IMG/VR virus record: IMGVR_UViG_3300030101_002774
Span: 1-21,024 of that record
Length of the DNA stretch: 21,024 bases
Strand: one strand, 5' to 3'
Origin: a virus
Of the stretch, positions 1-19,673 are shown in pieces (the first letter of the stretch is position 1; every line of letters begins with the position of its first letter). The translations under genes were made by a program, and so were the position numbers. A model generated the notes under the pieces. That model was not told where the DNA came from. It made no database searches and saw only the letters and a list, made by a program, of their open reading frames with translations.

Positions 1-265
1 TATCGGTCAAATTAGAGCAATTATCGTCAAATATCTTATACATACGTTCTATAGCTTGTTCTTTTTCCATGCCCCTTAAAAGCATATGCAAACCACTTTC
101 TACTGCTGTACCTCTTTCTGCTGAAGCACTACTGGGAAACTCATAACCAAATATCCTGCGTAAAGCCCATCTTTCTCTGTAAAAAGCAAATTCATTCAAA
201 TGACTAAACGATAAGGGCAATAGACTTTTATCGCCCCTATCAAATTTTTTAAAATGCTCAATCAT
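1..265 (-). CDS. PD-(D/E)XK exonuclease, N-terminal part (cut by window edge)
   Basis: The frame starts at ATG 265 and runs off the left edge, giving about 88 residues. The start resembles RecB/Cas4-like phage exonucleases: a serine-rich LSFSHLNEF segment, an arginine-rich stretch (YRERWALRRIFG) and then the AERGTAVESGLH segment, which matches the family's RGTAxH motif. The usual histidine is glutamate here, followed by SGLH. Such enzymes degrade DNA ends in phage recombination and replication. The catalytic D and ExK residues would lie outside the window, so activity cannot be judged. The start overlaps the previous gene by 8 bases, so it is probably translationally coupled at the end of the early operon. 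The family call is inferred from motif shape. Confidence 0.75.
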   Translation of the reverse strand, partial: MIEHFKKFDRGDKSLLPLSFSHLNEFAFYRERWALRRIFGYEFPSSASAERGTAVESGLHMLLRGMEKEQAIERMYKIFDDNCSNLTD

Positions 266-458
266 AGTCTTTTAACGCTTTTAAGTTTTTTTCAAGTTCG
301 CCTTTGACATCAGTAAGTTGTTCATAAACATTACTCTGACTACCAAAGTGTGAAATATATCTTACAAGAGCATTTAATAAGTTCTGATTTATCTCAATGC
401 TCATGCCAAGCCTTTTTTCATGCTCTTTTTTTACATAATCTGGAATAGTACTAGTCAT
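258..458 (-). CDS. Small helical protein of unknown function
   Basis: A 66-residue protein, charged and mostly helical. The middle (residues 25-45, INQNLLNALVRYISHFG) looks like an amphipathic helix and the C-terminus is Lys/Glu-rich, suggesting a short coiled coil. It has no cysteines and no membrane segment. It overlaps the upstream HTH gene and the downstream exonuclease gene by 8 bases each, so it belongs to a coupled set HTH - this gene - exonuclease. I do not recognise a named family. An accessory role to the exonuclease is only suggested by position. Confidence 0.7.
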   Translation of the reverse strand: MTSTIPDYVKKEHEKRLGMSIEINQNLLNALVRYISHFGSQSNVYEQLTDVKGELEKNLKALKDYD

Positions 459-669
459 CTATTTTACCCACTAATTCATATTCAGCAAATCTAACGCCAT
501 TTTTTGCTATCATGTTGGTTCTGATATCAAAACCATCTTTTCTTAAATCGTGGATTGTGGAACTTAACCGATATAGACCAAAATCTCTCATTGCATCTAA
601 ACCAGTTATTTTATAGCCATCAAGCAAATGGTCTTTTACTCTTTGGCATTTTGATTTTTTAATTGTCAT
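451..669 (-). CDS. Winged helix-turn-helix protein, HTH_39-like
   Basis: A 72-residue protein matching the small phage helix-turn-helix type of Pfam HTH_39. An N-terminal helix ends in HLLDGYKITGLDAM, followed by a recognition helix (RLSSTIHDLRKDG) and a wing (DIRTNMIAKNGVRFAEYEL). Family members typically read '...L..G..It..eAl..fg..rlaarI..LR..G..I.t', which this follows closely. It probably binds DNA, perhaps as a regulator of phage transcription. The start at ATG 669 is preceded by AAAGGATAG, a reasonable ribosome-binding site. The stop overlaps the next gene by 8 bases. The DNA target cannot be told from sequence; the palindromes near 3883 and 5565 are possible targets but nothing links them directly. 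Confidence 0.8.
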   Translation of the reverse strand: MTIKKSKCQRVKDHLLDGYKITGLDAMRDFGLYRLSSTIHDLRKDGFDIRTNMIAKNGVRFAEYELVGKIDD

Positions 670-682
670 AAAACTATCCTTT

Positions 683-1195
683 CTATAAATGTTTCATTGA
701 CTCTCTTTCATTGACCGACTTTGTTCTTAAGTCATCTCTGAAAGTCTTAAAGGATTCAAACCTAATCTTGGCTCTATTCCTCTTTTTAAGGGTTTCGTTA
801 TATCTATTAACGTAGTCCTTAAACTTTTCGTGGGTATATATTAACCCATCTAATTCTTTCATATTCTTATAACTTTTATTCTGAGAAAATTGAAGTATTA
901 ATTCTGCAATTATCATTTTTTCTTCTTTTTTCATAAGTTCAACTGCTGTATCTAGATCAGCAAATTCTAAGCCAATTTTGTCTACATAGCTATCTCGGTG
1001 TTTTGGATTGCTTTTTAAACGTACTGTTTTTACCCAATCCATACATAAAGCCACTTTTTCGGCTGATATAGGGGTATTAAGTATAACTTCCCACCCTTTT
1101 GCTATATCTTCGTGATTAGCTTTTATATCGCCATAATTCTTACCTCTGGCATTTATGACTTTTAAAATCTCATCACAAATATCTTTACCAATCAT
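683..1195 (-). CDS. DUF6378-like phage protein with extra C-terminal helical domain
   Basis: A 170-residue protein. Residues 1-90 fit DUF6378: RGKNYGDIKANHEDIAKGW, then VALCMDWVKTVRLKSNP, then HRDSYVDKIG. DUF6378 has no proven activity; its conserved residues resemble small phage proteins linked to nucleotide metabolism, but that is not established. Residues 95-170 are a separate Lys/Arg/Glu-rich helical region ending in RAKIRFESFKTFRDDLRT, resembling small helical phage proteins that usually stand alone, so this may be a fusion. The start at ATG 1195 follows the stop of the upstream gene by one base. Early-operon member. Confidence 0.7.
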   Translation of the reverse strand: MIGKDICDEILKVINARGKNYGDIKANHEDIAKGWEVILNTPISAEKVALCMDWVKTVRLKSNPKHRDSYVDKIGLEFADLDTAVELMKKEEKMIIAELILQFSQNKSYKNMKELDGLIYTHEKFKDYVNRYNETLKKRNRAKIRFESFKTFRDDLRTKSVNERESMKHL

Positions 1196-1198
1196 AAT

Positions 1199-1771
1199 TT
1201 ATTTACCTTTTTGCAGAAGTTTTTTTTGTATTCTTTGCAATTTTTGTTCTTTTTTTATATCCAAATATTCAATCACTTTTAGATCACCTCTGTTTTTTTT
1301 CATAAACACACAATGTGAACAAACTTGAAGTTCTCGTGGTAATCTTTTAACTGTATAAATTTTAAATTTTGTATATCTTCCACACACACACTTAAAAACA
1401 TAAGTAGGTTTCCTATTAGAAGAATAATTTTTAGAGAATCTTTTCCAATCTTCGTTAAAATCTTCTAAATTTTTAGTAAAATGATCTCCATACTTTTTCA
1501 ATATCGATAGGTAAAAAGCAACTTTTCTTTGTGGTCGTGTAATTCTTCCTACAATGAAAACATCTCCAAACTTTTTACCCATCATTACCTTTTGATTTGC
1601 ACTCCATTTATCTACATCAGTACAAGTATTAATGGGAAGTTTATCCCAATAACCTTTTTTTGGATTATCACTTCTTAAATCTGTATCTTTTATATCAAGA
1701 ATTTCTTTAAGTGCTAATTTATTAATAGGATAGTTGTGTAGTCTTTGCCAAAAGCTATTTTCGTATGTCAT
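1199..1771 (-). CDS. Uncharacterised protein with CxC/CxxC zinc-binding motif
   Basis: A 190-residue basic protein. Near residues 127-153 it has KCVCG followed about 20 residues later by CSHC, a four-cysteine arrangement typical of a zinc ribbon. The N-terminal part (residues 1-110) has lysine and aromatic residues and a segment (FIVGRITRPQRKVAFYL) that I cannot place in a family. The last 35 residues form a Lys/Gln-rich helix. The start at ATG 1771 overlaps the upstream stop in an ATGA, implying coupled translation. It may bind nucleic acid through the zinc module; this is inference from motif alone. Confidence 0.7.
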   Translation of the reverse strand: MTYENSFWQRLHNYPINKLALKEILDIKDTDLRSDNPKKGYWDKLPINTCTDVDKWSANQKVMMGKKFGDVFIVGRITRPQRKVAFYLSILKKYGDHFTKNLEDFNEDWKRFSKNYSSNRKPTYVFKCVCGRYTKFKIYTVKRLPRELQVCSHCVFMKKNRGDLKVIEYLDIKKEQKLQRIQKKLLQKGK

Positions 1772-1968
1772 AATTTATTTACCTTTATACATTCGCCTAA
1801 CACTACATTGTGATATGGTGGAACTTCTTTTGCTCTGTAATATAACAACTTCATCTGGCACTCTTTTTTAGTTTCAAATTCCCACTCAAACATATGAGTA
1901 AAACACGCTTGTTTGGCTTCTCCATTAGCTATCCATGCTGAACAAATTAATGCCATTGCTTTAAACAT
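1768..1968 (-). CDS. Small cysteine-containing, possibly secreted protein
   Basis: A 66-residue protein with a short hydrophobic N-terminus (MFKAMALICSAWIANGEA) that could be a minimal signal peptide, followed by cysteines near residues 23, 37 and 60. The spacing suits an exported disulfide-bonded protein of a type common in marine phages. The frame is open further upstream to 2049, but I place the start at ATG 1968: it overlaps the upstream stop by 8 bases, as neighbouring genes do, while the longer form would overlap it by 89. Function unknown. The 7793-7993 gene is similar in style. Confidence 0.65.
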   Translation of the reverse strand: MFKAMALICSAWIANGEAKQACFTHMFEWEFETKKECQMKLLYYRAKEVPPYHNVVLGECIKVNKL

Positions 1969-2197
1969 TTTTATTATCTTTAATAAGTTTTTTTCTTTTA
2001 GAATCGGCTTGGCAACGACACTTATCTGAACAATATTGTTTATTAACAAAAGTTTTAAGAACTCTTACTCTCATAAGTTCATGGCAATTTTTACAAAAAT
2101 CCTCATAATAAGCATTTTGTTTTAAAAATTTAATAGTTTCCTCTAATGCCTTTACTCTAAAAGTTAAATCTTTTTTTGCTTGTTTTAATGTAATCAT
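1961..2197 (-). CDS. Small zinc-finger-like protein
   Basis: A 78-residue protein with two cysteine pairs: C35-xx-C38 (CKNC) and C56-xxx-C60 (CSDKCRC), separated by a basic segment. This is the layout of a treble-clef or zinc-ribbon fold. Residues 1-30 form a Lys/Glu-rich helix and the tail after residue 63 is strongly basic, so nucleic-acid binding is plausible. The start at ATG 2197 has the early-operon ribosome-binding site GGAGTTC at 2201-2207, which itself lies in the last codons of the HNH gene upstream. Its place directly after an HNH gene suggests the two may act together, but no family is recognised. Confidence 0.7.
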   Translation of the reverse strand: MITLKQAKKDLTFRVKALEETIKFLKQNAYYEDFCKNCHELMRVRVLKTFVNKQYCSDKCRCQADSKRKKLIKDNKNV

Positions 2198-2482
2198 TTA
2201 GAACTCCAATTCTTTTTTATATATTTTGTCTTTTAAAATTAACTTTAGTTTTTCGTTAATGCCTTTGTTTTTATGAACTTTATTATGGCAACTTCTACAC
2301 AATGGAAATAGGTTATCTATTCTGTTTAATCTATTGCCTGCAACACCACCCATTTTTTTATTTTCTATATGGTGTATGTCTACTGCCACTTGCATATTAC
2401 AAAGCCAACATATGGGAATATCGCTTTCACAATACCCCCAATAGTCAGCAAATAGCTTTTTATAGTTCTTTAAGGTTTTCAT
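2198..2482 (-). CDS. HNH endonuclease-type protein
   Basis: A 94-residue protein with a complete HNH motif and its zinc site: C25-xx-C28 (CWLC), the catalytic pair H37-H38 (DIHHIENK), the structural asparagine N57 (RIDNLFPLC), C62-xx-C65 and H66/H70. HNH enzymes of this size nick or cut DNA; in phages they occur as homing endonucleases, packaging cofactors or recombination nucleases. Here it lies in the early module, far from any terminase in view, so a packaging role is not supported. The start at ATG 2482 lies 23 bases inside the upstream gene. The last codons carry the GGAGTTC site used by the next gene. Confidence 0.85.
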   Translation of the reverse strand: MKTLKNYKKLFADYWGYCESDIPICWLCNMQVAVDIHHIENKKMGGVAGNRLNRIDNLFPLCRSCHNKVHKNKGINEKLKLILKDKIYKKELEF

Positions 2483-2879
2483 TGAACGATTGTACTGCTT
2501 TTTTTGTTAGTTCTGGAATATCAGCTACAGAATATTGTCCACTACCCATAGCACGACCAACAACTCCAGTAACAAAGATGTCTAGTCTTTGGGTACTGCT
2601 TTTGCTATTACCCCCACTAGAAACGCTTGTATTGGCTTCTGGTGCATTGCCATCAATCACCTTAACACTAGATACATTTGAATATGGGTTACCATTTTTT
2701 GATTCTTTAGTATTGATGATATTATAGCTAATAGTGTTTCCTTTTTCTGGAAGTGGGTTCAGCATTTCCCCTCTACTGTAAAGTCTAGTACCATCTATTA
2801 GGTCTATGCAGAAATTTGGTATCCCATCTTCTGAATTATCGTAGCAAGCCTTAACCTGCCCAGTTCTTTGATTTGTCAT
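2460..2879 (-). CDS. Probable OB-fold single-stranded-DNA-binding-like protein
   Basis: A 139-residue protein. Residues 1-75 read as a small beta-rich barrel (QVKACYDN, FCIDLIDGTRLYS, GNTISYNII, PYSNVSSVKVI), suggesting an OB fold. A Ser/Gly/Asn-rich linker follows (residues 78-95), then a helical tail with TGVVGRAMGSGQY. Core, flexible linker and conserved tail are in keeping with a phage ssDNA-binding protein, but the acidic SSB tip is missing. I place the start at ATG 2879 because GGAG lies just upstream at the right spacing; a TTG 12 bases earlier would put that GGAG inside the gene. Early operon, next to the HNH gene. Function inferred. Confidence 0.6.
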   Translation of the reverse strand: MTNQRTGQVKACYDNSEDGIPNFCIDLIDGTRLYSRGEMLNPLPEKGNTISYNIINTKESKNGNPYSNVSSVKVIDGNAPEANTSVSSGGNSKSSTQRLDIFVTGVVGRAMGSGQYSVADIPELTKKAVQSFNENLKEL

Positions 2880-2893
2880 ATTATTCTCCAATT

Positions 2894-3283
2894 TTATTTA
2901 TTAATTACATTATAGCCACGCCCCTCAAGACAATTATTGAGTAGATCAGTTCTTGTCTTTAACTTCGGACTTAGCCATAACACTCTCCACCTTAGATTAT
3001 TATAAAGCACCTTACTTTTATCCCAGAAGTAAGAAGTATTATCTTCTACTAGGCTTTTGCAGGTAAAATAATCATCATGGTATCGGTTCATATCGCCTTT
3101 AATATTAGCTGACGATTTACCCCTACTGTCAACAATAGGGGTACTAGAACAACTTACTAAGAACCCTAATACTAGGATTAACACCATAGCTATTAAGATT
3201 CTTTTAAAGATAACAATTCCGATATTTCTTTTTCGGTAACTGTTAGCTTCTTTTATATGTAACTTGAAATATTTATTTAGCAT
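2894..3283 (-). CDS. Putative membrane lipoprotein
   Basis: A 129-residue protein with a hydrophobic stretch (IFKRILIAMVLILVLGFL) ending in the lipobox L-V-S-C45, so the mature form would start at C45 and be anchored by lipid. The mature part (PIVDSRGK..., two later cysteines, CLEGRGYNVI at the end) resembles alphaproteobacterial outer-membrane lipoproteins that start with PIVD and end with a C-x-x-GRGY motif, but the glycine-zipper centre of those proteins is missing. The basic N-region before the hydrophobic core is long (about 28 residues). ATG 3283 was chosen over a TTG at 3295. Its place among early genes suggests host takeover or superinfection exclusion; that is inference. Confidence 0.65.
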   Translation of the reverse strand: MLNKYFKLHIKEANSYRKRNIGIVIFKRILIAMVLILVLGFLVSCSSTPIVDSRGKSSANIKGDMNRYHDDYFTCKSLVEDNTSYFWDKSKVLYNNLRWRVLWLSPKLKTRTDLLNNCLEGRGYNVINK

Positions 3284-3479
3284 ATTTTTCGCCAATCATA
3301 TTCCAAGTCTGTTCAACAAAAGGCTCTAAATCATCGTAATCACAAATAAATTCGTAACCCTTTTTATATAACTCTTGAACTCTTTTAATAGCTTCTTCTA
3401 AAGCATCGCTATCTTTTACAATAGCAACCACCTTATCAAAGAAACTATCTTCTAAATATTGTTTATAAATTATACTCAT
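3273..3479 (-). CDS. Small acidic protein of unknown function
   Basis: A 68-residue, acidic, mostly helical protein (DALEEAIKRVQELYKKGYEFI, then a DDLEPF segment). The middle looks like an alpha/beta unit such as those in small modification or sensor proteins, but I recognise no family. I place the start at ATG 3479, not at the ATG 15 bases upstream, because the shared GGAGTTC ribosome-binding site (3486-3492) lies just before it and would be inside the longer form. It overlaps the upstream gene by 17 bases and the lipoprotein gene by 11. Confidence 0.65.
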   Translation of the reverse strand: MSIIYKQYLEDSFFDKVVAIVKDSDALEEAIKRVQELYKKGYEFICDYDDLEPFVEQTWNMIGEKYAK

Positions 3480-3645
3480 TAGCTTGAACTCCATTATTAT
3501 TATAGTTGTATATTTTTATAGTATTAAATTTATTATCGACTAATGCCCTTAAATCATCTTTAAAGACAACTCTAAAGTAATGCTTGACCTTACCATCTTC
3601 GATAAGGTCAAATCTTTTTAAATCTTTAAATACTAGCTTTTTCAT
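3463..3645 (-). CDS. Small beta-rich protein of unknown function
   Basis: A 60-residue protein, Lys- and Asp-rich, with short alternating beta-like segments (FDLIEDGKVKHYFRVVF, LRALVDNKFNTIKIYNY). It could be a small beta barrel or SH3-like fold. The start ATG 3645 has AGGGG eight bases upstream, overlapping the stop of the previous gene. The C-terminal NNNGVQ is encoded by the ribosome-binding cassette of the next gene, so the protein's tail and the neighbour's translation signal share bases. No family recognised. Confidence 0.65.
   Translation of the reverse strand: MKKLVFKDLKRFDLIEDGKVKHYFRVVFKDDLRALVDNKFNTIKIYNYNNNGVQANEYNL
3486..3492 (-). promoter_or_regulatory. GGAGTTC ribosome-binding site that fixes the start at 3479
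   Basis: GGAGTTC lies six bases before ATG 3479 and is preceded by AATAATAAT. Within the gene upstream the same bases encode Asn-Asn-Asn-Gly-Val-Gln. The identical cassette precedes six other early genes, which supports the downstream start. Confidence 0.75.
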
Positions 3646-3653
3646 AATTACCC

Positions 3654-3836
3654 CTATTTAAATTTGACGTTATTTGTTTCAATAAGAGATTTTAATTTAA
3701 TACACGCTATTCCAATCTCTTTGATATACTCATCAACTCTTATATTGCGTACAACGTCATTATCTAAATTATACGCAACTTTTTCTATTGAGGTAATTTT
3801 ATTGTGCAAGTCTATTGCTTTTTTTATATTTGTCAT
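3654..3836 (-). CDS. Small helical protein of unknown function
   Basis: A 60-residue helical protein with heptad-like spacing of Ile/Leu (NIKKAIDLHNKITSIEKVAY, later IGIACIKLKSLIE), so a coiled coil or helical bundle is likely. It is the first gene after a promoter-like cassette (3841-3914) and has its own GGAGTTC site (3841-3847) preceded by AAT repeats. It therefore seems to begin a transcription unit inside the early block. Function unknown. Confidence 0.7.
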   Translation of the reverse strand: MTNIKKAIDLHNKITSIEKVAYNLDNDVVRNIRVDEYIKEIGIACIKLKSLIETNNVKFK

Positions 3837-3840
3837 TCTT

Positions 3841-3914
3841 GAACTCCAATTATTATTAGTATTATTATGCTTTATTGCTATTACCTAATTTAAAGGCTAG
3901 GTTTTAATTGTCAA
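3841..3914 (-). promoter_or_regulatory. Promoter/operator/RBS cassette, second copy
   Basis: Read on the minus strand: TTGACA (3909-3914, perfect -35), a 16-base spacer, then TAAATT (3887-3892, -10-like). An inverted repeat ACCTA-N10-TAGGT (3883-3902) covers the -10. An AAT-rich leader and GGAGTTC (3841-3847) follow. The upstream cassette near 5529-5601 has the same order and the same AAAACCTAG segment. I infer a repressor operator over a promoter; the binding protein is unknown. Confidence 0.55.
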
Positions 3915-3922
3915 ACTATTTA

Positions 3923-4108
3923 TTATTTTCTTGATAAATAGTAACAATGCACTAGCTTTTTCTGTATTTTCTCCACTATTTTTAGGTCTTTTTTTGAACC
4001 AATATCCTCTGCATCTTCTTCTATTAAGAAAGCCAAGTTTTCACTATATTCGTGAATTGCTTGCCTTAATTGTTCCATTTCTTTTTGGCTAAATTTTTTG
4101 TAATACAT
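3923..4108 (-). CDS. Small acidic helical protein of unknown function
   Basis: A 61-residue, mostly helical protein, acidic in the middle (EEDAEDIGSKKD) and Lys-rich at the end. The start at ATG 4108 is preceded by AAGGAG and shares its first base with the stop of the upstream gene (TAATG), so translation is probably coupled. Two helical arms around an acidic turn suggest a helical hairpin. It is the last gene before the internal promoter-like cassette. No family recognised. Confidence 0.65.
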   Translation of the reverse strand: MYYKKFSQKEMEQLRQAIHEYSENLAFLIEEDAEDIGSKKDLKIVEKIQKKLVHCYYLSRK

Positions 4109-4272
4109 TATTTTTTCTCCTTGAAAGAACCAATTTTGGCATCAAAACCTCTTAACCATTTTAATTGATACAATTGTTCTTGTATTAATTTTTCAATTTT
4201 TTCTATTTGTAATTGAGTAAAATCAAAATCATGTTGTATGGTTATTTCAATCTTAGATTTATATCTTTTCAT
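4108..4272 (-). CDS. Small helical protein of unknown function (54 residues)
   Basis: A 54-residue reading frame that fills the gap between its neighbours. It starts KRYKSKIEITIQHDF, then has an amphipathic helix (QLQIEKIEKLIQEQLYQL), and ends GSFKEKK. The start ATG 4272 has GGGAGTTC directly upstream (4276-4282), the shared early ribosome-binding site. It overlaps the previous gene by 14 bases and the next by one (TAATG). Codon content, start signal and tight fit support a real gene. Function unknown. Confidence 0.7.
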   Translation of the reverse strand: MKRYKSKIEITIQHDFDFTQLQIEKIEKLIQEQLYQLKWLRGFDAKIGSFKEKK

Positions 4273-4498
4273 TATGAACTCCCTTTATTTTATTGATATG
4301 TCTTGAAATATAATTATCTAATCTTTTAAGATTACTTGACCAATGCTCTATATTAGTAATGTCCATTTTTCTAGCCAAAGACCAACCTCTAGGGTAAGAG
4401 TTTTCTTTAACTAACACCCAACCTAAATTTTCTAATTCCTCAGTAAGGTGGTAACCTTTTCGATATTTACTGATTTGACCTTTTACAATAAACTGCAT
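4259..4498 (-). CDS. Small basic protein of unknown function
   Basis: A 79-residue protein with two short beta-like stretches (MQFIVKGQI, GWVLVKENSYPRGWSLA) and a helical C-terminal half (LKRLDNYISRHINK). ATG 4498 has the AATAATAATA plus GGAGTTC cassette (4502-4508) upstream, lying inside the last codons of the previous gene. Its own last codons carry the ribosome-binding site of the next gene. It is one of several small proteins of an early operon that may modulate host functions; that role is general inference. Confidence 0.7.
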   Translation of the reverse strand: MQFIVKGQISKYRKGYHLTEELENLGWVLVKENSYPRGWSLARKMDITNIEHWSSNLKRLDNYISRHINKIKGVHNEKI

Positions 4499-4638
4499 TA
4501 TGAACTCCTATTATTATTAATATATTGTTGTGCTTCTTTTTTAGTTCTGAATATATCCAAAACTTTACCATTAAGAGATACAGCCCATTTACAAGCTGTA
4601 CCCCAATTTTCAGTTTTATATATTTGGTAATTATTCAT
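4498..4638 (-). CDS. Very small protein, DUF2188-like shape (46 residues)
   Basis: A 46-residue frame between two larger genes. The sequence reads NNYQIYKTENWGTACKWAVS, then LNGKVLDIFRTKKEAQQYI. The 'W.V..nG......F.TK.EA..yi' pattern resembles the short beta-beta-alpha fold of DUF2188-type proteins. The start shares a base with the stop of the large OB-fold gene (TAATG). The tail NNNRSS is encoded by the AAT repeats and GGAGTTC that serve as the next gene's ribosome-binding site. The family link is tentative, the gene itself likely. Confidence 0.65.
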   Translation of the reverse strand: MNNYQIYKTENWGTACKWAVSLNGKVLDIFRTKKEAQQYINNNRSS

Positions 4639-5525
4639 TATGCACTCTGTTTTGTTACTTCTGTTACTTTTAGTCTTTGTAACCTAGTCTGCTTTAAGAC
4701 ACACTTATCAAAAGATTTTGGGGCATACTTCATATGCTCTTTAATAAACCCAGTAACCTTAATTGTATCTCCCTTTTCAACGTAGTTGTAATCTTTGTCT
4801 TTAAGGTCTGTAGTGCCTTTGTAGATAAAGATATTACCCTTTTCGTCTTTGAAAGTGTAAATGTTAACATAACCAAATTGGCTTTCATAACCTGCAAATC
4901 TTGTATGTGTTAACTCTAACTCTACTTTATCGCCAATATTACCTACAAACTTAGAAGCCTTTGCTTCTTGAATTGCCCCTAATCTCCAACAACCTAAGTT
5001 AACTGGTAAAGATTTCGCTTCCTTATAAAGTTGCTTTTTTTCTTCGTCAGTTTTGAAAGAGTGTTTTTTTGACAATGCTTTTTTGAAAAGGTCTTTCATT
5101 TTGATATGGTCGTTCCAGTTCCATCTTGAGGACATTTTTTGAACCCATGTAACATCACCACAAATTTTAGCCCATCTTTCAGCCCAAATTTTTTCTGCTT
5201 TTATTTCTTCCTCAGTTCTGTATTCATAAGGGTTTTGATGTGTAGGCTCTTTAGTCAAATATAAAATTTTAGAAACTCTCATTTCCTCACAAAACTTTTT
5301 AGCTTTTTCATTAGCTTCATTATAGTCGATAGCCAAATTGATAAGATGTTGTGTTCTAAACTCATCTCTTGGAACTGGTCTGCCTAAAGGGTCTTTGCCC
5401 CATACTGTTTCTGTGTAGTTGCAGTAAAGAGAAAAAAGTTTTTGATCATGCCCTAACCCTACAAAAAGTGAGGACATTCTCTCAGTTACTTTTACAAATT
5501 CTTTTGCAAATTTTCTATCATTCAT
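4638..5525 (-). CDS. OB-fold domain protein, likely nucleic-acid binding
   Basis: A 295-residue protein, the largest of the early block. Residues 1-190 are helical and Lys/Glu-rich, with conserved-looking Trp residues. Residues 195-290 form a beta-rich domain (GDKVELELTHTRFAGYESQ, YVNIYTFKDEKGNIFIYKG, KGDTIKVTGFIKEH, CVLKQTRLQRL) with the strand order of an OB fold. This C-terminal domain resembles a module in many phage proteins that probably binds single-stranded nucleic acid. A role in phage DNA replication or recombination is inferred. The start ATG 5525 has the strongest cassette upstream (AAT repeats, AAGGAGTTC at 5529-5537) and follows a promoter-like region. Confidence 0.7.
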   Translation of the reverse strand: MNDRKFAKEFVKVTERMSSLFVGLGHDQKLFSLYCNYTETVWGKDPLGRPVPRDEFRTQHLINLAIDYNEANEKAKKFCEEMRVSKILYLTKEPTHQNPYEYRTEEEIKAEKIWAERWAKICGDVTWVQKMSSRWNWNDHIKMKDLFKKALSKKHSFKTDEEKKQLYKEAKSLPVNLGCWRLGAIQEAKASKFVGNIGDKVELELTHTRFAGYESQFGYVNIYTFKDEKGNIFIYKGTTDLKDKDYNYVEKGDTIKVTGFIKEHMKYAPKSFDKCVLKQTRLQRLKVTEVTKQSA

Positions 5526-5528
5526 TAT

Positions 5529-5601
5529 GAACTCCTTATTATTATTATCGGCATTAGTGCCAGTAACCTAGAGTATAATCTAGGTTTTATTTAAATGTAA
5601 A
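5529..5601 (-). promoter_or_regulatory. Promoter/operator/RBS cassette, first copy
   Basis: Read on the minus strand: TTTACA (5596-5601, five of six -35 bases), an 18-base spacer and TATACT (5572-5577, -10). An exact inverted repeat AACCTAG-N8-CTAGGTT (5565-5586) surrounds the -10. A small GGCA-CTAA-TGCC hairpin (5550-5561), AAT repeats and GGAGTTC (5529-5535) follow before ATG 5525. The -35 lies inside the 34-residue upstream frame. A repressor-controlled early promoter is inferred from the palindrome and its second copy near 3883. Confidence 0.6.
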
Positions 5602-5684
5602 GCACTAATATAACTTTTTTTTAAATTTATTGTGTTTTTCTTAGTTTTTGGTACTATTACTTGAGAGTAATCCTCCGTAATCAT
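5580..5684 (-). CDS. Very small basic protein or leader peptide (34 residues)
   Basis: A 34-residue frame at the very start of the leftward early block. It reads MITEDYSQVIVPKTKK, then a Lys/Asn/Leu-rich tail. The start ATG 5684 has GGAGTTC (5690-5696) six bases upstream, the same signal as six other early genes, which is the main reason to believe it. The stop lies inside the palindromic operator region of the next gene, so its translation and that promoter overlap. It may be a real small protein or a leader peptide; there is no family match. Confidence 0.5.
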   Translation of the reverse strand: MITEDYSQVIVPKTKKNTINLKKSYISALHLNKT

Positions 5685-5712
5685 AGTATGAACTCCAATT
5701 TTATACTATACT

Positions 5713-5740
5713 TAGGGGGTAAATTTAGGTTTATCCCCTA
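5713..5740 (+). repeat. Inverted repeat covering the start of the VRR-NUC gene
   Basis: TAGGGGGTAAA, six bases (TTTAGG), then TTTATCCCCTA: 11-base arms with one G-T pair. The last base of the repeat is the A of the ATG at 5740. In plus-strand mRNA the likely AGG ribosome-binding site would sit in the loop and the start codon at the stem base. It lies between two divergent genes, so it could be an operator, a translation-control hairpin or both. Confidence 0.6.
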
Positions 5741-6102
5741 TGATTAAAGAATCACATATACAAATAGCTTGTAACGATTTACTTAATCAAATGGCTAATG
5801 TTTACTGCTTTCGTCATTTTCATGTGCCTAATGAGGGTAAAAGGTCTATGTTTCTGCATAATCATATGAAACGCATGGGTTTGAAGTCTGGTTGTCCAGA
5901 TTTAATTATTGAATACCCCAAAGGGCGTATTATGTATGTTGAACTGAAAACTAAAACTGGCAGGTTAACACCAACACAAAAACTATGGGCTGTTCAATCC
6001 TCAGTATATGAAACCCCTCACTATATTGTAAAAGGTAATATTGATGAATGTCTAAATGAATTAAAAGATATTATTGAAAAGAATGTTCCTAAAAGGTCTT
6101 AA
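5740..6102 (+). CDS. VRR-NUC domain nuclease
   Basis: A 120-residue single-domain nuclease of the VRR-NUC branch of the PD-(D/E)XK superfamily. The active site looks complete: E32 in HVPNEGKR, D54 in KSGCPDL, E68 and K70 in YVELKTK, and Q80 in LTPTQK. Stand-alone phage VRR-NUC proteins of this size are structure-selective or nicking nucleases thought to act in replication or recombination. It is the only plus-strand gene in the window, divergent from the early block and convergent with the late block. Start ATG 5740 overlaps an inverted repeat. The nearest ribosome-binding candidate, AGG at 5727-5729, lies ten bases upstream and is weak. Confidence 0.9.
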   Translation: MIKESHIQIACNDLLNQMANVYCFRHFHVPNEGKRSMFLHNHMKRMGLKSGCPDLIIEYPKGRIMYVELKTKTGRLTPTQKLWAVQSSVYETPHYIVKGNIDECLNELKDIIEKNVPKRS

Positions 6103-6117
6103 TTTTCTAAGGTATGT

Positions 6118-6255
6118 TTAGACCTTTTTAAGTCTTAACACCCTCTGAGGGGCTTTAAATGAGGTTTTTTTACGCCTTTTTGCCCCTCTTTTACGCTTTG
6201 CAGACATTTTATCCATTAAAACGCTTAATGTGGTCGTTGTAGTGAAACCACTCAT
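6118..6255 (-). CDS. Very small lysine/arginine-rich protein (45 residues)
   Basis: A 45-residue frame starting with ATGA overlap on the stop of the preceding gene (6252-6255), so it is set up for coupled translation. Residues 1-15 are Thr-rich (SGFTTTTTLSVL) and the rest is very basic (MSAKRKRGAKRRKKTSFK, then RVLRLKKV). It continues the series of tiny basic genes at 6252-6630. Translation might instead begin at an internal ATG, giving about 29 residues. It lies across the region that would hold the terminator of the convergent nuclease gene, which weakens the call. Confidence 0.45.
   Translation of the reverse strand: MSGFTTTTTLSVLMDKMSAKRKRGAKRRKKTSFKAPQRVLRLKKV
6147..6192 (+). terminator. 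Candidate terminator after the VRR-NUC gene
   Basis: GAGGGGC (6147-6153) is mirrored exactly by GCCCCTC (6182-6188), followed by TTTT. The long loop also contains AGG/CCT arms and T-runs. This would end plus-strand transcription from the nuclease gene. A second inverted repeat (TGTTTAGAC-N8-GTCTTAACA, 6115-6140, one mismatch) lies just before it and may help stop leftward late transcription. The long loop makes this a moderate call. Confidence 0.4.
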
Positions 6256-6434
6256 TTACCAACTTTTCTCATTGCCCTAACATGTGCTTGACGAAATGTA
6301 CGCCCTTTTTTTAAATCTTTTGCCATCTCTTGCATATGTTTCAAAGTATGGTGTCTGGCGTGTCGGTTCATTGTCTTTTTTTGTCTTGAGGTTAAGTCTT
6401 TAGTAAACCTTTTAATAGAAGCAACTTTAACCAT
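6252..6434 (-). CDS. Small basic phage protein (60 residues)
   Basis: A 60-residue very basic protein, rich in Lys, Arg and His (VKVASIKRFTKDLTSRQKKT, then RHARHHTLKHMQEMAKDLKKG), ending in RAMRKVGK. I recall similar short proteins near the lysis genes of marine phages, but no function is established. Candidate roles are DNA binding in the particle or host interference. ATG 6434 shares its first base with the stop of the upstream 31-residue gene, and its stop overlaps the next gene's start (ATGA). Confidence 0.7.
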   Translation of the reverse strand: MVKVASIKRFTKDLTSRQKKTMNRHARHHTLKHMQEMAKDLKKGRTFRQAHVRAMRKVGK

Positions 6435-6529
6435 TATTTCTTTCTCATCTTCATTTTATTTTTTTTCTTTTTCTTCTTTTTCTTATTCATAGGCTTTGAA
6501 CTTGCTCTACTTCCATAATGATAAGGCAT
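6434..6529 (-). CDS. Very small lysine-rich protein (31 residues)
   Basis: A 31-residue frame starting MPYHYGSRASSKPMN, followed by a run of nearly continuous lysines ending MRKK. Start and stop each share one base with the neighbouring frames (TAATG on both sides), the same coupling as its neighbours. The MPYHYG start is a pattern I recall in short proteins of marine phages. It is probably translated; lysine homopolymers suggest nucleic-acid or membrane-surface binding, but function is unknown. Confidence 0.6.
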   Translation of the reverse strand: MPYHYGSRASSKPMNKKKKKKKKNKMKMRKK

Positions 6530-6630
6530 TATTTTTTCCCTTTCTTTTTCTTGTTACCTTTCTTCTGACTTTTTAAAATTGCCATTTGTAAGCCTTTAGG
6601 TAACTTCTTTTGTTTTTTTGTGAGTTTCAT
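6529..6630 (-). CDS. Very small lysine-rich protein (33 residues)
   Basis: A 33-residue frame: MKLTKKQKKLPKGLQMAILK, then SQKK and more lysines. The LPKGLQMAILK core is the most conserved-looking part and resembles a recurrent tiny protein of marine phages that I recall only by sequence style. An AGAGG ribosome-binding site lies six bases before ATG 6630. The stop overlaps the next start (TAATG). Function unknown. Confidence 0.65.
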   Translation of the reverse strand: MKLTKKQKKLPKGLQMAILKSQKKGNKKKKGKK

Positions 6631-6639
6631 TTTTACCTC

Positions 6640-6753
6640 TTAATGTAAAACTGTTGAATGTATTACTATAAGGATAACACAAAATATTAAAATCTGAACC
6701 CATGTTTTTAATTCTTCAAAAGTTTCCCAAATTTTTAAAAAAAAGTCTTTCAT
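6640..6753 (-). CDS. Very small single-pass membrane protein (37 residues)
   Basis: A 37-residue frame: KDFFLKIWETFEELKTW, then a hydrophobic helix (VQILIFCVILIVIHSTVLH) that would span the membrane with the N-terminus probably cytoplasmic. The start overlaps the holin stop in ATGA, so it is likely made together with the holin. A second holin-like or antiholin role is possible from position and topology but unproven. Confidence 0.6.
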   Translation of the reverse strand: MKDFFLKIWETFEELKTWVQILIFCVILIVIHSTVLH

Positions 6754-7139
6754 TTGCTAACTCCCTTTTTTGTATCTACTTTCTTAACCTTTTCAAATGA
6801 CCTCATGCCACCTATTCCAAGCATACCTAATAAAAGTGGCATCATAACCGACATATCAGCTTGTGGTATGATTACACCAAATCCTGCACAAATTGGACTT
6901 ACAAGAAAATTTATAGCCATTCCTAAAACAGCTACATATCCTGCTAAAGGTCGCCAAGAACTTTGAAACCAGTTCCCCCTTGATTCAGCTTCATTAACCT
7001 TTATTTGAGCCAAAGCTAATTGTTGAGCGTGTTTTTCAGCCATTGTGGATATTTCGTGGGCTAGTTTATTTTTAGTGTCTTTGTCCTCTATAAACTTGCC
7101 TAATAGCTTTGACGCTACTGGTACTAAACTTGCTATCAT
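6750..7139 (-). CDS. Holin, GTA 3-TM type
   Basis: A 129-residue membrane protein of the GTA_holin_3TM kind. Residues 1-50 are amphipathic (LAHEISTMAEKHAQQLALAQ), then the typical NWFQSSWRPLAGYVAVLGMA segment, a hydrophobic region (NFLVSPICAGFGVII) and MPLLLGMLGIGGMRSFEKVK near the end, giving two to three membrane passes. Holins pierce the inner membrane at a set time and release the lysozyme. The start overlaps the stop of the lysozyme gene by four bases (ATGA). Order lysozyme then holin, on the minus strand. Confidence 0.85.
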   Translation of the reverse strand: MIASLVPVASKLLGKFIEDKDTKNKLAHEISTMAEKHAQQLALAQIKVNEAESRGNWFQSSWRPLAGYVAVLGMAINFLVSPICAGFGVIIPQADMSVMMPLLLGMLGIGGMRSFEKVKKVDTKKGVSK

Positions 7140-7576
7140 ATCTTTGCCATTCTTTCACATAATCTTTCGGCTCTGTTAGTTACTTGCCGATACCATTTGG
7201 AATTTTTCATCTCTAAACTTGCAGATTTGAAATCTCTATTATCAATATGTTTCTTCATCTTTAAAAATCTGCTTAAACGAGGGCGACCAAGATTAAACAT
7301 CATATTTGCAATAATCAATTGTGCTTCTTCTGGTAAAATATAAAAATCTTCATATAAATAAGTACACTCATCTATTGTAACATTTAAATCTTGTTCAAAT
7401 AGTTCATTTACTCTTTCATCATCAATTTTTGTACCAACTTCTAAACCAAACTCTGGGTCTGTTTTTTTTACTAAATGCCCCACGCCCAAAGTTGGCAAGC
7501 CTAAATGATCTAAATATATTTCGTTCTTGTAGCCCTCATCAGCTTTTATTTCTTCTTTTAGTCTTTCTATATCCAT
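7136..7576 (-). CDS. Endolysin, T4-type lysozyme (GH24)
   Basis: A 146-residue muramidase that cuts the beta-1,4 bond between N-acetylmuramic acid and N-acetylglucosamine. The catalytic triad of T4 lysozyme is visible: E14 (KADEGYKN), D23 (YLDHLG) and T29 (LPTLGVGH). Later LIIANMMFNLGRPRLSRF and SKWYRQVTNRAERL match the family. The length is close to the usual 150-165 residues. There is no signal peptide or SAR anchor, so it needs the holin next to it for release. ATG 7576 overlaps the upstream gene by 10 bases. Confidence 0.92.
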   Translation of the reverse strand: MDIERLKEEIKADEGYKNEIYLDHLGLPTLGVGHLVKKTDPEFGLEVGTKIDDERVNELFEQDLNVTIDECTYLYEDFYILPEEAQLIIANMMFNLGRPRLSRFLKMKKHIDNRDFKSASLEMKNSKWYRQVTNRAERLCERMAKI

Positions 7577-7761
7577 TGCACCCTCTGTAAAACAAAAGCT
7601 ATGAATTGTGTGGCAACCATAAAACCAATAGCCCAGAGAACATAGTTCAACTTCTTTACCTCTTTTTGCAAATGATAAATATGATTAGTTTCCAGATGTT
7701 CTATCTTATTGTAGAGATTAACTAAATGCTCTTTGCTTGTTTTTGGTTCTAGTTTTGCCAT
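7567..7761 (-). CDS. Small coiled-coil membrane protein near lysis genes
   Basis: A 64-residue protein: residues 8-38 are heptad-patterned (LVNLYNKIEHLETNHIYHLQ) and residues 40-58 are a membrane helix (VLWAIGFMVATQFIAFVL). This topology (cytoplasmic coiled coil, then membrane) is common in small phage proteins beside lysozymes. It might modulate the holin, but it lacks a periplasmic domain and lipobox, so it is not a normal spanin. AAGG lies about six bases before ATG 7761. It overlaps the lysozyme start by 10 bases. Confidence 0.65.
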   Translation of the reverse strand: MAKLEPKTSKEHLVNLYNKIEHLETNHIYHLQKEVKKLNYVLWAIGFMVATQFIAFVLQRVQWI

Positions 7762-7792
7762 TTTTCAACCTTATATTTTTTTACTTAAAATT

Positions 7793-7993
7793 TCAATATA
7801 ATCTAGTATTCTCTGGTACAGATTTGAGTTTACAAATGCAACTCATTTCTCTTTCTTGTTCACCCATTCTTTGTACTTGACCATTTAATCTATCACGAAA
7901 ATAGGTACAATTGTTAATGTTGGCAAACTTTAAATCACCCTCAAATGCCAAAGGATTAGATAAATAGCATATCAAAATAAAGCAGGGCTTCAT
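7793..7993 (-). CDS. Small secreted cysteine-containing protein
   Basis: A 66-residue protein starting with a short hydrophobic signal-like segment (MKPCFILICYLSNPLAFEGD). Cysteines follow near residue 29 (NINNCTYFRDRL) and in the pair CIC near residue 53, ending KSVPENTRLY. I recall proteins with the same CTYFRDRLNGQ pattern in other marine phages. It is probably exported and disulfide-bonded. Close to the lysis genes, but no role is known. The start overlaps the stop of a 16-residue frame (7990-8040). Confidence 0.65.
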   Translation of the reverse strand: MKPCFILICYLSNPLAFEGDLKFANINNCTYFRDRLNGQVQRMGEQEREMSCICKLKSVPENTRLY

Positions 7994-8040
7994 GCTAAGC
8001 CATTGATTTTATTGACTATTTTCCCAGGGTACGTCCTCAT
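7990..8040 (-). CDS. Possible 16-residue coupled peptide
   Basis: A 16-residue frame (MRTYPGKIVNKINGLA) that starts in an ATGA overlap with the stop of the upstream gene and ends in an ATGA overlap with the start of the next. This links two otherwise separated genes by back-to-back coupling. It may be a true micropeptide or just a ribosome path to the next start. Too short for family comparison. Confidence 0.3.
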   Translation of the reverse strand: MRTYPGKIVNKINGLA

Positions 8041-8237
8041 TTCAAAACCTCATTTAAGCCAAAAACCTCTAACATCATAAAGGTAAAGAATAATAATAAA
8101 ACTCCACCAAATATAAGTTTGCCAGAAAAGTTTGTAGAACCTAATCTTATAGCAACAAACTCGTTTCCAAGTATTCTTAGTATTAATTCAAAACTATTTT
8201 CGCCTACTTTAACATCTAATGTTTTTTTATCCGACAT
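8037..8237 (-). CDS. Small single-pass membrane protein
   Basis: A 66-residue protein. Residues 1-38 look beta-like and soluble (LDVKVGENSFELILRIL) and residues 40-60 are a hydrophobic membrane helix (LIFGGVLLLFFTFMMLEVFG). The start ATG 8237 has AGGGGG upstream at a good distance. It lies between the tail-associated membrane protein and the lysis genes. A virion or lysis-associated membrane role is possible; no family recognised. Confidence 0.6.
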   Translation of the reverse strand: MSDKKTLDVKVGENSFELILRILGNEFVAIRLGSTNFSGKLIFGGVLLLFFTFMMLEVFGLNEVLK

Positions 8238-8292
8238 AAAAGCCCCCTAAAAAACTAAGTGTCCATATTATAATCGTAATTCTTATAAACAT
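8227..8292 (-). CDS. Possible 21-residue hydrophobic peptide
   Basis: A 21-residue frame (MFIRITIIIWTLSFLGGFYV, then G) filling the gap between two genes and overlapping the next by 11 bases. Almost entirely hydrophobic, it would be a minimal membrane peptide. It starts two bases after the upstream stop with no clear ribosome-binding site. Real translation is uncertain. Confidence 0.3.
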   Translation of the reverse strand: MFIRITIIIWTLSFLGGFYVG

Positions 8293-8293
8293 A

Positions 8294-8776
8294 CTAGCCC
8301 TTATTTGCTTTCCATATAAAAAATAATAAAACAAAAAATCCAACTATAGTTATTACCAAGCCTATTATAGCAATAATATTAATTATCTTGTCCATTTGCT
8401 CCTGCTTGCGATGGACTAACTCTGCTCGTTTTTTTCTTATGGAAATTTCGGTTTTAATAAAGTCTTCCCACCCTGCTTGCCCATATGACATCATTATCAT
8501 ATTTTTTAGGTCTTGTCGGTGTTTTTGCATCTTCTTTTTAGCTATAAGGCTGTCTAAAGCGACCTTTTCTATATTCTGACTGTTAAACATAGATTGCCAA
8601 AAAGTAGGGTTCTTGGCTCTTTTTTCCATATGCTCAATATCGCTACTATTTTGCATAAAAGTAGAAACTTGAGATGACATTTCAGATATATCTTTGCCTA
8701 GTGCAATGCCTTGTTTAAGGTAATCAACGCACTTAGTTGCACCTGCTAATAATAATCCTATGCTTGCAGGGTCTAT
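8294..8776 (-). CDS. Membrane-anchored tail-region protein with apparent AUA start
   Basis: The first ATG in frame (8680) gives 128 residues, but the frame is open for another 32 codons upstream. Those encode a family-typical start (DPASIGLLLAGA, then KQGIALGKDISEM). GGGAG (8783-8787) lies six bases before an ATA at 8774-8776, and no ATG, GTG, TTG or CTG exists in that stretch. I therefore propose an AUA start giving 160 residues. The middle is helical and basic and the C-terminus (residues 133-156) is a membrane helix. Marine phages have similar proteins with an N-terminal DPxT/S segment and a C-terminal membrane anchor; the function is unknown. If AUA is wrong, the shorter form from 8680 stands. 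Confidence 0.6.
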   Translation of the reverse strand: MDPASIGLLLAGATKCVDYLKQGIALGKDISEMSSQVSTFMQNSSDIEHMEKRAKNPTFWQSMFNSQNIEKVALDSLIAKKKMQKHRQDLKNMIMMSYGQAGWEDFIKTEISIRKKRAELVHRKQEQMDKIINIIAIIGLVITIVGFFVLLFFIWKANKG

Positions 8777-8782
8777 AACTCA

Positions 8783-8787
8783 CTCCC
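8783..8787 (-). promoter_or_regulatory. GGGAG ribosome-binding site before the AUA start
   Basis: GGGAG follows the stop of the upstream gene and stands six bases before ATA 8776, ideal Shine-Dalgarno spacing. It is 102 bases away from the first ATG (8680), so it would be useless for that start. This is the main evidence for non-standard initiation. Confidence 0.55.
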
Positions 8788-8994
8788 TTAGTCTGTGGGT
8801 TTATCGGGAAACTTAAAATCTTTATCTCGAATACTAGAAAATGTTTTTGTAATATCTCGTAAGGCTTGTCTATATGTTTTCCAATCTGATGGTATTGTTG
8901 TGTTAGTTTCTTGAGCCTTTACTACTACCCAATCACTTTCTTTAAGTAATTCATTTCTTTTCTGTCTTAACATAATTAAATCTGCACTTGCCAT
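8788..8994 (-). CDS. Tail-fibre assembly chaperone-like protein, paralogue 2
   Basis: A 68-residue protein resembling short phage fibre-assembly chaperones: RNELLKESDWVVVKAQE, then a middle of YRQALRDITKTF and a C-terminus ending FKFPDKPTD. The 'SDW ... YR..LRDit ... FP.KP' order is typical of that group. It follows the 180-residue fibre protein directly and shares one base with its stop. It is closely related to the gene at 10844-11119, which also follows a fibre gene. It likely helps fold or trimerise the fibre protein next to it. Confidence 0.7.
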   Translation of the reverse strand: MASADLIMLRQKRNELLKESDWVVVKAQETNTTIPSDWKTYRQALRDITKTFSSIRDKDFKFPDKPTD

Positions 8995-9536
8995 TATCCT
9001 CGAATCTCCATCAATGTTAAATTAGATGTAGCAGTTTGACCCTCAATAGTATTATAGTTATAGCCACCTCTATTTAAATAGAATGTACCACTATTACCAC
9101 TTTTACTAGCATAACCTTTAATATTATAAGTTGTTTGAGAGGTAGTGCTTGGTGAATCTAAGAAATGAAAAGGTATACAATTTGAACCTGCATAAGTACT
9201 ACCATCACCTCTAGTACTTGAGTGCATTTCAGCATTACCACTTGAAAAACTGCTTTGTGTGGTATCTCCTTTACCTATTTCTGTTGAAGCTCTAAATATT
9301 TTTGTACCATAATGTTCTACTGTGCTACTCATTGTGGTAGATACTTGTAAAAAACCCATGATAAGTATTTTGCTATTTGTTGAAAATGGAGTAATATTTG
9401 CTGTTAAACAAACAACTTCATTTGTGCCAAATAAATGAGAAGCAGATTCAGTATGTGCTTTTGAATGATGAGTAACTGTCTGTAATACAGCACCAGTAGG
9501 TGCTTGTAGTGAAAAATTTATTTTTGTTAATGGCAT
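8994..9536 (-). CDS. Tail fibre tip protein (receptor-binding-like)
   Basis: A 180-residue beta-rich Ser/Thr/Asn-rich protein. The C-terminal part (FHFLDSPSTTSQTTYNIKGY, later LTLMEI) matches the tip domain also found at the end of the 9852-10841 protein, including a segment ITPFSTNSKILI and the RASTEIGKG strand. Proteins with this domain are thought to form the distal adhesive end of marine phage fibres. It has no obvious shaft, so it may attach to the longer fibre or tip. Encoded directly before its likely chaperone (8788-8994). Confidence 0.7.
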   Translation of the reverse strand: MPLTKINFSLQAPTGAVLQTVTHHSKAHTESASHLFGTNEVVCLTANITPFSTNSKILIMGFLQVSTTMSSTVEHYGTKIFRASTEIGKGDTTQSSFSSGNAEMHSSTRGDGSTYAGSNCIPFHFLDSPSTTSQTTYNIKGYASKSGNSGTFYLNRGGYNYNTIEGQTATSNLTLMEIRG

Positions 9537-9539
9537 AAT

Positions 9540-9842
9540 TTACCCACCTATCAATGCTGTAATTTCATCATCAGACAAACCTAAATCTTTTAATTTTTGT
9601 TTGCCTTTATCTTTATCACTCATATTTTTTTCTGCTGTTTCTAATTCCGTTTTCTTAGTTTTTATTTGTGACCAAGTAACACCAAACTTAGATTCATCAT
9701 CACTTAATATAGCTGAACCATTTGAATCTTCTCCAATAACTTTTCTAAAACTTTTTTTAAACTGTGATTCTGTTGTTGGTTCTCCAGTAAGTGTCCAATC
9801 TTTTATACCTAATTCAACTAATGTGTCTGCTATTTTTATCAT
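9540..9842 (-). CDS. Small tail-fibre-region protein
   Basis: A 100-residue protein with a conserved-looking N-terminal half (ELGIKDWTLTGEPTTESQFK, then KFGVTWSQIKTKKTELE) and a helical C-terminal half. The 'W.L.GEP..E..F...F' motif recurs in short proteins next to marine phage fibre genes; I recall the pattern but not a proven role. The last stretch (KQKLKDLGLSDDEITALIGG) looks like a short helical hairpin. It sits between two fibre genes, so a chaperone or adaptor role is plausible. Confidence 0.6.
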   Translation of the reverse strand: MIKIADTLVELGIKDWTLTGEPTTESQFKKSFRKVIGEDSNGSAILSDDESKFGVTWSQIKTKKTELETAEKNMSDKDKGKQKLKDLGLSDDEITALIGG

Positions 9843-9851
9843 ATAATTATC

Positions 9852-10841: not shown

Positions 10842-10843
10842 AA

Positions 10844-11803: not shown

Positions 11804-11810
11804 ATTTCAC

Positions 11811-12158: not shown

Positions 12159-12167
12159 ATATTCTCC

Positions 12168-12482: not shown

Positions 12483-12501
12483 AATTTTTTATACCTCTTT
12501 T

Positions 12502-19670: not shown

Positions 19671-19673
19671 ATA

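Follow-up and report, generated by a model that had tools for sequence, protein, structure and literature searches.

A hairpin loop antisense to a lineage-specific early ribosome-binding-site heptamer in a family of uncultured marine phages

GGAGTTC is repeated at the starts of early genes

The window, by which we mean the entire 21,024-nucleotide stretch of viral DNA analysed, contains eight matches to the heptamer GGAGTTC, all on the minus strand (2201, 3486, 3841, 4276, 4502, 5529, 5690 and 15992), where 0.86 were expected and the largest count among 100 shuffles was four. The same heptamer emerged as the top 7-mer upstream of ORF starts in an unbiased positional scan of the window. Seven of the eight copies lie in the early region, and six of these are gene starts, with the ATG of a plausible ORF following after 3–8 nt. 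These six minus-strand ribosome-binding sites (RBSs) are found at 2201..2207 (gene 1961–2197), 3486..3492 (gene 3273–3479), 3841..3847 (gene 3654–3836), 4276..4282 (gene 4108–4272), 4502..4508 (gene 4259–4498) and 5529..5535 (gene 4638–5525). By our own gene count, the heptamer stands at ~6 of 19 early starts versus 0 of 26 late starts (p ~0.003), and copy 15992 is inside a late gene. A preliminary description of this DNA had listed the repeated positions, which were all recovered, and had held that the late genes do not use the motif, which these counts bear out. It had also taken seven copies to be early gene starts; six stand, and 5690 was ruled out as a start site, since its ORF is 34 codons long and relatives do not preserve the ATG. 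A leader ORF at this position, not being conserved in relatives, was rejected. The early RBS sequence is given as AATAATAATAAGGAGTTCATAATG, and at 2201..2207 the upstream frame also ends in GAG TTC TAA.

Four of the six start-site copies are preceded by AATAATAAT, as had been described. Two of these AAT tracts (4502 and 3486) lie within the upstream reading frame as Asn codons, and the other two are preceded by a promoter/operator. On the minus strand, a predicted early promoter (TTTACA-N18-TATACT; 5565..5601) overlaps an operator-like AACCTAG-N8-CTAGGTT, and a second, weaker copy of this arrangement (TTGACA...CCTAGCCTTTAAATTAGG) is found at 3884..3914. The further function once proposed for the tract is best read as that of an unstructured 5′ end of early mRNAs or of a translation enhancer, with half of the tracts located in coding sequence.

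The motif also coincides with sites of genome rearrangement. In alignments of close relatives, 24 of 60 breakpoints fell ≤20 nt from a motif copy versus 5% expected, some of the short matches being the repeat itself, and the cassette carrying gene 4259–4498 is missing in relative L078 exactly between two copies. Such data could be explained if the motif were the recombination joint of a mobile gene-plus-RBS cassette with no regulatory role, akin to lambdoid boundary sequences or the PeSL cassettes of T4. The latter are mobile regulatory cassettes with an early promoter and a stem-loop between genes at shuffling joints; here, breakpoints cluster at the motif and two copies have a promoter/operator, but the RBS copies have no stem-loop. 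We regard a pure joint as quite improbable, since it leaves unexplained the hairpin, the loop match and the concerted change at conserved syntenic genes described below, and shuffling there may arise as a by-product.

A covarying hairpin precedes the VRR-NUC gene

The copy at 5690 sits in a hairpin loop, and this hairpin separates two divergent transcription units. Stem search and stem covariation define this hairpin, HP1, on the plus strand at 5682..5710 (CATAGTAT-GAACTCC-AATTTT-ATACTATA). Its apical loop displays the anti-RBS heptamer GAACTCC (5690..5696, plus strand), the perfect antisense of the early RBSs and complementary over all 7 nt to the six in the window. Always directly downstream is the gene for a VRR-NUC nuclease (5740..6102, plus strand; Pfam PF08774; synteny in ~60 loci), whose start codon is abutted by a second stem in the sequence, HP2 (TAGGGG...CCCCTA; 5713..5740, plus strand). 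HP1 lies 49–105 nt before this gene in 66 related loci (42 clusters) and precedes virtually all VRR-NUC homologues of the set. HP2 is kept by compensatory changes, for example GGGGCTGT/ACAGCCCC in L231.

Stem covariation was counted in 11 distinct hairpins on hand-phased arms because automatic alignment misplaced the 5′ arm across loop lengths. The 88 stem pairs comprise 81 Watson-Crick pairs, 4 GU pairs and 3 mismatches, as compared to 44 Watson-Crick pairs after shuffling. Loop length varies from 10 to 17 nt, a behavior unlike that of a fixed DNA operator. Because the stem is almost without wobble pairs, the strand is not readable from GU/AC asymmetry. An Rfam search of the window gave no match to c4 or any other catalogued RNA family.

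Loop and RBSs change in concert across lineages

Read in the sense of the RBSs, the hairpin loop has the form GGAGNNN, where NNN is TTC, ATC, GTC, CAT, GCA or TAT depending on the lineage, and the RBSs before the early genes of a given genome bear the same NNN as its loop. The resulting table of loops against RBSs is near-diagonal, with 133 own-lineage sites in 42 dereplicated clusters versus a permuted mean of 65 and maximum of 96. Values before dereplication were 150 versus 62; a redundancy artefact was therefore rejected, the effect being unchanged after dereplication. The own heptamer is the commonest in 40 of the 42 clusters, and 86% of its occurrences are at starts versus 29% for other GGAGNNN sequences.

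Individual gene families follow the same pattern. Orthologues of a DUF1376 family switch among TTC, GTC, GCA, CAT and ATC with lineage and carry the own heptamer in 24 of 27 cases, as do 13/13 members of an ArdC-N-like family and 28/35 of a lipoprotein-like family; all six members compared from the family of gene 3273–3479 have TTC. The heptamer follows lineage also where the gene is on the other strand (L113–L117), and loci added later agree (the ATC group L235/L242/L245/L251, and L247/L179). Exceptions are L170, in which GGAGATA is repeated yet the hairpin loop is CCCCCC, and L255 (loop TAT) and L151/L161 (loop TTC), in which the DUF1376 RBS does not match.

The preliminary description had suggested looking for the motif in close relatives; these carry GGAGTTC, lineages further away have versions of their own, and the motif is missing only from remote isolates, being absent as an RBS from the cultured relatives HTVC026P, 202P, 111P and 112P. 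We found no cultured phage with the element, no prophage or host in a DUF1376 search of GTDB genomes, and no isolate phage with the SSB-like neighbour (2460–2879). The phages that carry the element probably infect SAR11 bacteria, and gene control in SAR11 phages is little known.

These comparisons strongly support the earlier suggestions that TTC has a function beyond the Shine-Dalgarno sequence and that the early genes are co-regulated, as NNN changes in concert across genes and with the hairpin loop. GGAG is a common Shine-Dalgarno sequence in these genomes, and common ancestry and base composition could make an ordinary strong site seem repeated. This is very improbable; NNN is not complementary to 16S rRNA and is nonetheless the conserved part, as well as being lineage-specific, concerted and tied to a hairpin. 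Still harder to credit is a target for an endoribonuclease like T4 RegB, which cleaves GG*AG within the translation initiation regions of early genes (PMC3014915). In its consensus, GG*AGRAYARAA, GGAG must be followed by a purine, a rule broken by GGAGTTC and GGAGCAT, and no RegB family match was obtained among the early proteins scanned, from a window that probably covers only part of the genome (~32 kb in isolated relatives).

For each RBS, the own loop gives the strongest duplex (−12.4 to −17.6 kcal/mol), as compared to −5.6 to −10.5 kcal/mol with the anti-Shine-Dalgarno sequence. GGAGTAT is tolerated in CAT lineages, where it would form a G-U pair with the loop. A wider wobble test on RBS variants was mixed, with position-7 transversions tolerated and no wobble excess in TTC lineages; it was rejected as a discriminator between RNA and protein and kept as weak support.

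Predicted promoters favor an antisense RNA

A predicted antisense-RNA promoter (TTGTGT-N16-TACTAT with a TGG extended −10) was located by promoter scoring at 5630..5657 on the plus strand. The plus-strand prediction is supported statistically by a mean score of 11.7 versus 10.2 ± 0.2 for shuffles (0/100 shuffles), individual promoter predictions not being significant alone in an AT-rich genome. Conservation in a sister group picks up again at the −35 box of this promoter. The sense strand of the hairpin has no evident promoter signal. The predicted early promoter is downstream of the hairpin, and early mRNA from that promoter would therefore lack it. A sense-strand leader reading of the hairpin was dropped on these grounds.

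The own-lineage RBS heptamer and the antisense hairpin loop together suggest a small RNA that silences early genes. Judging from sequence, we consider it probable that translation from many early RBSs is repressed by an antisense RNA, or a 5′ leader, that pairs with them. Such an RNA would start near 5664 on the plus strand as its own small transcript and/or as the 5′ leader of the VRR-NUC mRNA. Once folded, its loop would present GAACTCC to GGAGTTC at the RBSs of the six early genes, where pairing would most simply block ribosome access and the AAT tracts may keep the targets unstructured. GGAG would be retained for the ribosome, with NNN providing extra loop pairing and a lineage-specific address, and loop and RBSs would therefore change together. 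We infer that the RNA is made, pairs and represses, as well as its timing in infection. For an RNA acting in trans with no known chaperone, seven base pairs is a short match.

The sense-strand hairpin loop and the RBSs share a sequence, and a phage RNA-binding protein (a RegA- or coat-like repressor or activator) could bind GGAGNNN at both, the hairpin serving as a high-affinity or sensor site and NNN drifting with specificity. T4 RegA acts on ~30 early RBSs, but at sites without a clear sequence consensus (PMC3014915). A protein appears unlikely given the predicted early promoter downstream of the hairpin, the absence of a promoter signal on the sense strand, the lack of a RegA-like family match among the early proteins scanned, and a specificity that must have shifted repeatedly at precisely these three bases. 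The 'phage regulator' of the preliminary description thus survives in spirit, with the evidence pointing to antisense RNA and not to a protein or S1. Less probable again is reversed control, in which the hairpin acts in cis within the leader of VRR-NUC and the RBSs of abundant early mRNAs pair with it, tuning VRR-NUC expression. The constant placement of HP1 before VRR-NUC and of HP2 on its start codon would fit, but a match between a single leader and many RBSs is more simply read as one regulator with several targets, and the targets keep the match even when distant or on the other strand.

Comparison with known systems

The nearest known system in mechanism is the c4 RNA of P1/P7, an antisense RNA with complementary sequence in its loops that covers a ribosome-binding site and on which heteroimmunity depends (PMC12197685). 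Both have a loop complementary to a phage mRNA RBS, as read here from sequence alone. c4 has one target operon (ant), whereas one loop here would address several early RBSs and be transcribed from a divergent promoter; the loop types, of which there are several, differ by lineage and may be compatible with c4-type heteroimmunity. The CI RNA of satellite phage P4 is a short antisense RNA that controls the phage's own replication genes via complementary sites (PMC4825925). It pairs with seqA/seqC to cause transcription termination, whereas the sites here are Shine-Dalgarno sequences. T4 RegB and RegA also shut off early genes post-transcriptionally at GGAG/AUG regions (PMC3014915), as is proposed here, although they are proteins with neither a lineage-specific heptamer nor an antisense hairpin.

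Nearest in appearance are the Start-Associated Sequences (SAS) of cluster K mycobacteriophages, which are repeated, asymmetric, RBS-containing sequences 3–7 nt before non-structural genes that extend beyond 16S pairing and have no known function (PMC3203893). The window motif is likewise a Shine-Dalgarno-containing repeat a few nucleotides before non-structural gene starts in one orientation. The SAS consensus, GGGATAGGAGCCC, is the same in the subclusters compared (PMC3203893), while the window motif is GGAGTTC with different flanks, and the SAS literature surveyed proposes no link to an antisense hairpin. About half of the SAS sites are immediately preceded by 17-bp inverted repeats (extended SAS); the AACCTAG..CTAGGTT-like dyad upstream of two window sites is of another kind. 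Citrobacter phage Mordin has a 26-bp RBS-containing start-associated repeat, of unknown role, before eight hypothetical genes on one arm (PMC4611695), unrelated to ours in sequence and phage.

Phage start-associated repeats were described in 2011, and their function has since gone without explanation. One such repeat is now tied by covariation to a specific hairpin, which offers a concrete antisense mechanism with several natural specificity variants; if true, this would amount to a multi-target phage riboregulator and to a naturally occurring collection of orthogonal RNA-RBS pairs. Antisense loops act as incompatibility determinants in plasmids. More speculatively, the heptamer may be an RNA address code, in which a single antisense loop shuts down an entire early regulon, lineages diverge by three bases in the loop and all target RBSs, the address sorts marine phages that infect together into immunity or incompatibility groups, and at least some SAS of other phages are targets of such RNAs. 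That all SAS have an antisense hairpin was rejected, as Keshu and Unicorn keep SAS with no proper match in the homologous intergenic region; the match in that region of Hammy is only partial. In mycobacteriophage Anaya and several relatives, a reverse-strand SAS copy is located in a hairpin loop.

Genome organization and a repeated heptamer

The window is a linear virus contig of 21,024 bases that resembles deposited phages only minimally at the nucleotide level; the nearest counterparts of its large tail protein are those of siphophages of SAR11 bacteria (HTVC026P, 51% identity; HTVC202P, 46%; HTVC111P, 41%). Early genes (258-5525) and structural genes (~6118-21015) occupy the minus strand, and one plus-strand gene, encoding a VRR-NUC nuclease (5740-6102), lies between the two blocks. 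The labels early and late were assigned from gene content and position. Going by its sequence, a putative phage-type lysozyme (endolysin) gene is located at 7136-7576.

GGAGTTC occurs eight times in the window, on the minus strand only (0.86 expected), and ranked top in an unbiased scan of 7-mers upstream of starts. The preliminary description took it for the ribosome-binding site (RBS) of seven early genes. This holds for six early ORFs; the copy at 5690 precedes no gene start and is part of a hairpin loop. Another copy (15992, minus strand) is internal to a late gene. Four of the six RBS copies are preceded by AATAATAAT, as had been described, and the heptamer is kept in the close relatives L078, L090 and L104-L107 (~90% nucleotide identity). 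Four isolated relatives do not use GGAGTTC as an RBS.

Relatives were gathered by a pattern scan and by protein scans of viral contigs, which also returned many more distant loci. Every distant lineage has its own GGAG+NNN repeated before early genes: ATC in L112, L122, L125, L235 and L242; GTC in L113-L117 and L119; CAT in L135, L157, L171, L176 and L182; GCA in L121. A large distant group (L111, L118, L156 and others) likewise has TTC.

A hairpin upstream of VRR-NUC

In every one of these genomes, one heptamer copy lies away from starts and forms part of a hairpin's apical loop, with ACCCCCTA or a similar sequence immediately preceding the hairpin. A VRR-NUC start codon follows at 49-105 nt, and essentially every VRR-NUC homologue with upstream sequence in the set has this hairpin. 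Across 11 distinct hairpins, 81 of 88 stem pairs are Watson-Crick, 4 are GU and 3 are mismatched; shuffling the partners leaves 44 Watson-Crick pairs, and column-wise shuffling yields 62 at most. The ATC group L112/L122/L125/L253 has a short stem of 4 bp, and the stems of L247/L180 and L255 are irregular. The loops span 10-17 nt, a variation more in keeping with an RNA hairpin than with a fixed-spacing DNA operator. A second stem, TAGGGG/CCCCTA (5713-5740), adjoins the VRR-NUC start codon; in relatives its loop ranges from ~15 to 75 nt and its stem changes are compensatory.

Covariation of loop and RBS

Across the 42 clusters that dereplication left, the NNN of the genome's own loop is present at 133 start-associated sites versus 65 on permutation (maximum 96), and the own heptamer is the commonest in 40 clusters. 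Starts account for 86% of own-heptamer occurrences versus 29% for other GGAGNNN, and long records show the own heptamer chiefly in the hairpin and before starts. The DUF1376 family (PF07120) uses TTC, GTC, GCA, CAT or ATC across five lineages and has the own heptamer in 24/27, including genomes with the gene on the other strand; the ArdC-N-like and lipoprotein-like families have it in 13/13 and 28/35, respectively. Loci fetched once the rule had been formed also agree.

Exceptions exist. Locus L170 repeats GGAGATA at early RBSs, and the loop of its hairpin before VRR-NUC (L170:4100-4160) reads CCCCCC on the VRR-NUC strand; this locus is either a counterexample or in a transitional state. The DUF1376 RBS is non-matching in L255 (loop TAT) and in L151/L161 (loop TTC). 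In the L147/L158/L164 group, the hairpin loop matches TTC and a second RBS heptamer, GGAGAAT, is repeated with AAT tracts (L158: 5818, 6129, 6602 and 8613); no partner for this heptamer was found. Heptamers altered at the seventh base are also common.

Short identical joints may aid gene exchange by cassette shuffling. Alignments of the early region to seven close relatives gave 60 ends, of which 24 fell ≤20 nt from a motif copy (5% expected), some of the 24 being short matches of the repeat itself. L078 lacks a complete gene cassette at 4259-4508 (gene 4259-4498), which two GGAGTTCATAATG copies flank in the window, and is joined exactly at the motif. Shuffling nevertheless leaves the hairpin unexplained.

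Predicted promoters and a candidate antisense RNA

Most simply, an antisense RNA would cover several early RBSs, each RNA step being inferred from sequence. Between the hairpin and the first gene there is a predicted early promoter (TTTACA or TTGACA, a spacer of 17-18 nt and a TATAAT-like box), set within a dyad AACCTAG..CTAGGTT; early mRNA would therefore start downstream of the hairpin. The dyad, AACCTAG-N8-CTAGGTT (5565-5586 and 3884-3901, minus strand), overlaps predicted early promoters, recurs in relatives immediately before AAT tracts, and is probably a repressor operator.

On the opposite strand, a predicted promoter (TTGnnn-N16/17-TGnTAnnnT) stands mostly 32-41 nt before the loop. Its mean score over 23 partly interdependent representatives was 11.67 versus 10.22 ± 0.21 in dinucleotide shuffles (0/100), single scores being individually non-significant. 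Among the 17 sequences of a sister group, conservation drops to 0.34 upstream and recovers from the opposite-strand -35 box. Read on this promoter's strand, the loop sequence is GAACTCC, the reverse complement of the early RBS heptamer. In predicted loop-RBS duplexes, the matched pair is the strongest at every RBS (-12.4 to -17.6 kcal/mol), stronger than the anti-SD.

The c4 RNA of P1/P7 is a known antisense RNA covering a phage RBS; the CI RNA of P4 is similarly antisense, but acts by termination. No Rfam family matched in the window, and no comparable pelagiphage system was found in the open-access literature. Start-associated repeats without assigned function are described in cluster K mycobacteriophages (Start-Associated Sequences, SAS) and in phage Mordin. 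In the mycobacteriophage Anaya (L267:29871-29883, record 59870-59882), a conserved intergenic region contains a stable hairpin whose apical loop includes the reverse-strand SAS copy, an arrangement shared by Angelica, Peanam, Validus and Enkosi. The Anaya-type match is missing from Keshu and Unicorn, which do retain SAS, and is partial in Hammy, making this parallel a lead and not a rule.

Proposed mechanism

With such an antisense RNA, GGAG would be kept since the ribosome needs it, and NNN would vary freely provided that loop and targets match. Repression might serve early shut-off, replication control (DUF1376 being the most constant of its targets), or immunity against related phages. A CCTCC (5671-5676, plus strand) in the RNA's predicted 5' tail, kept in most TTC lineages (the L111 and L147 groups) and not in others, could form a second anti-SD contact.
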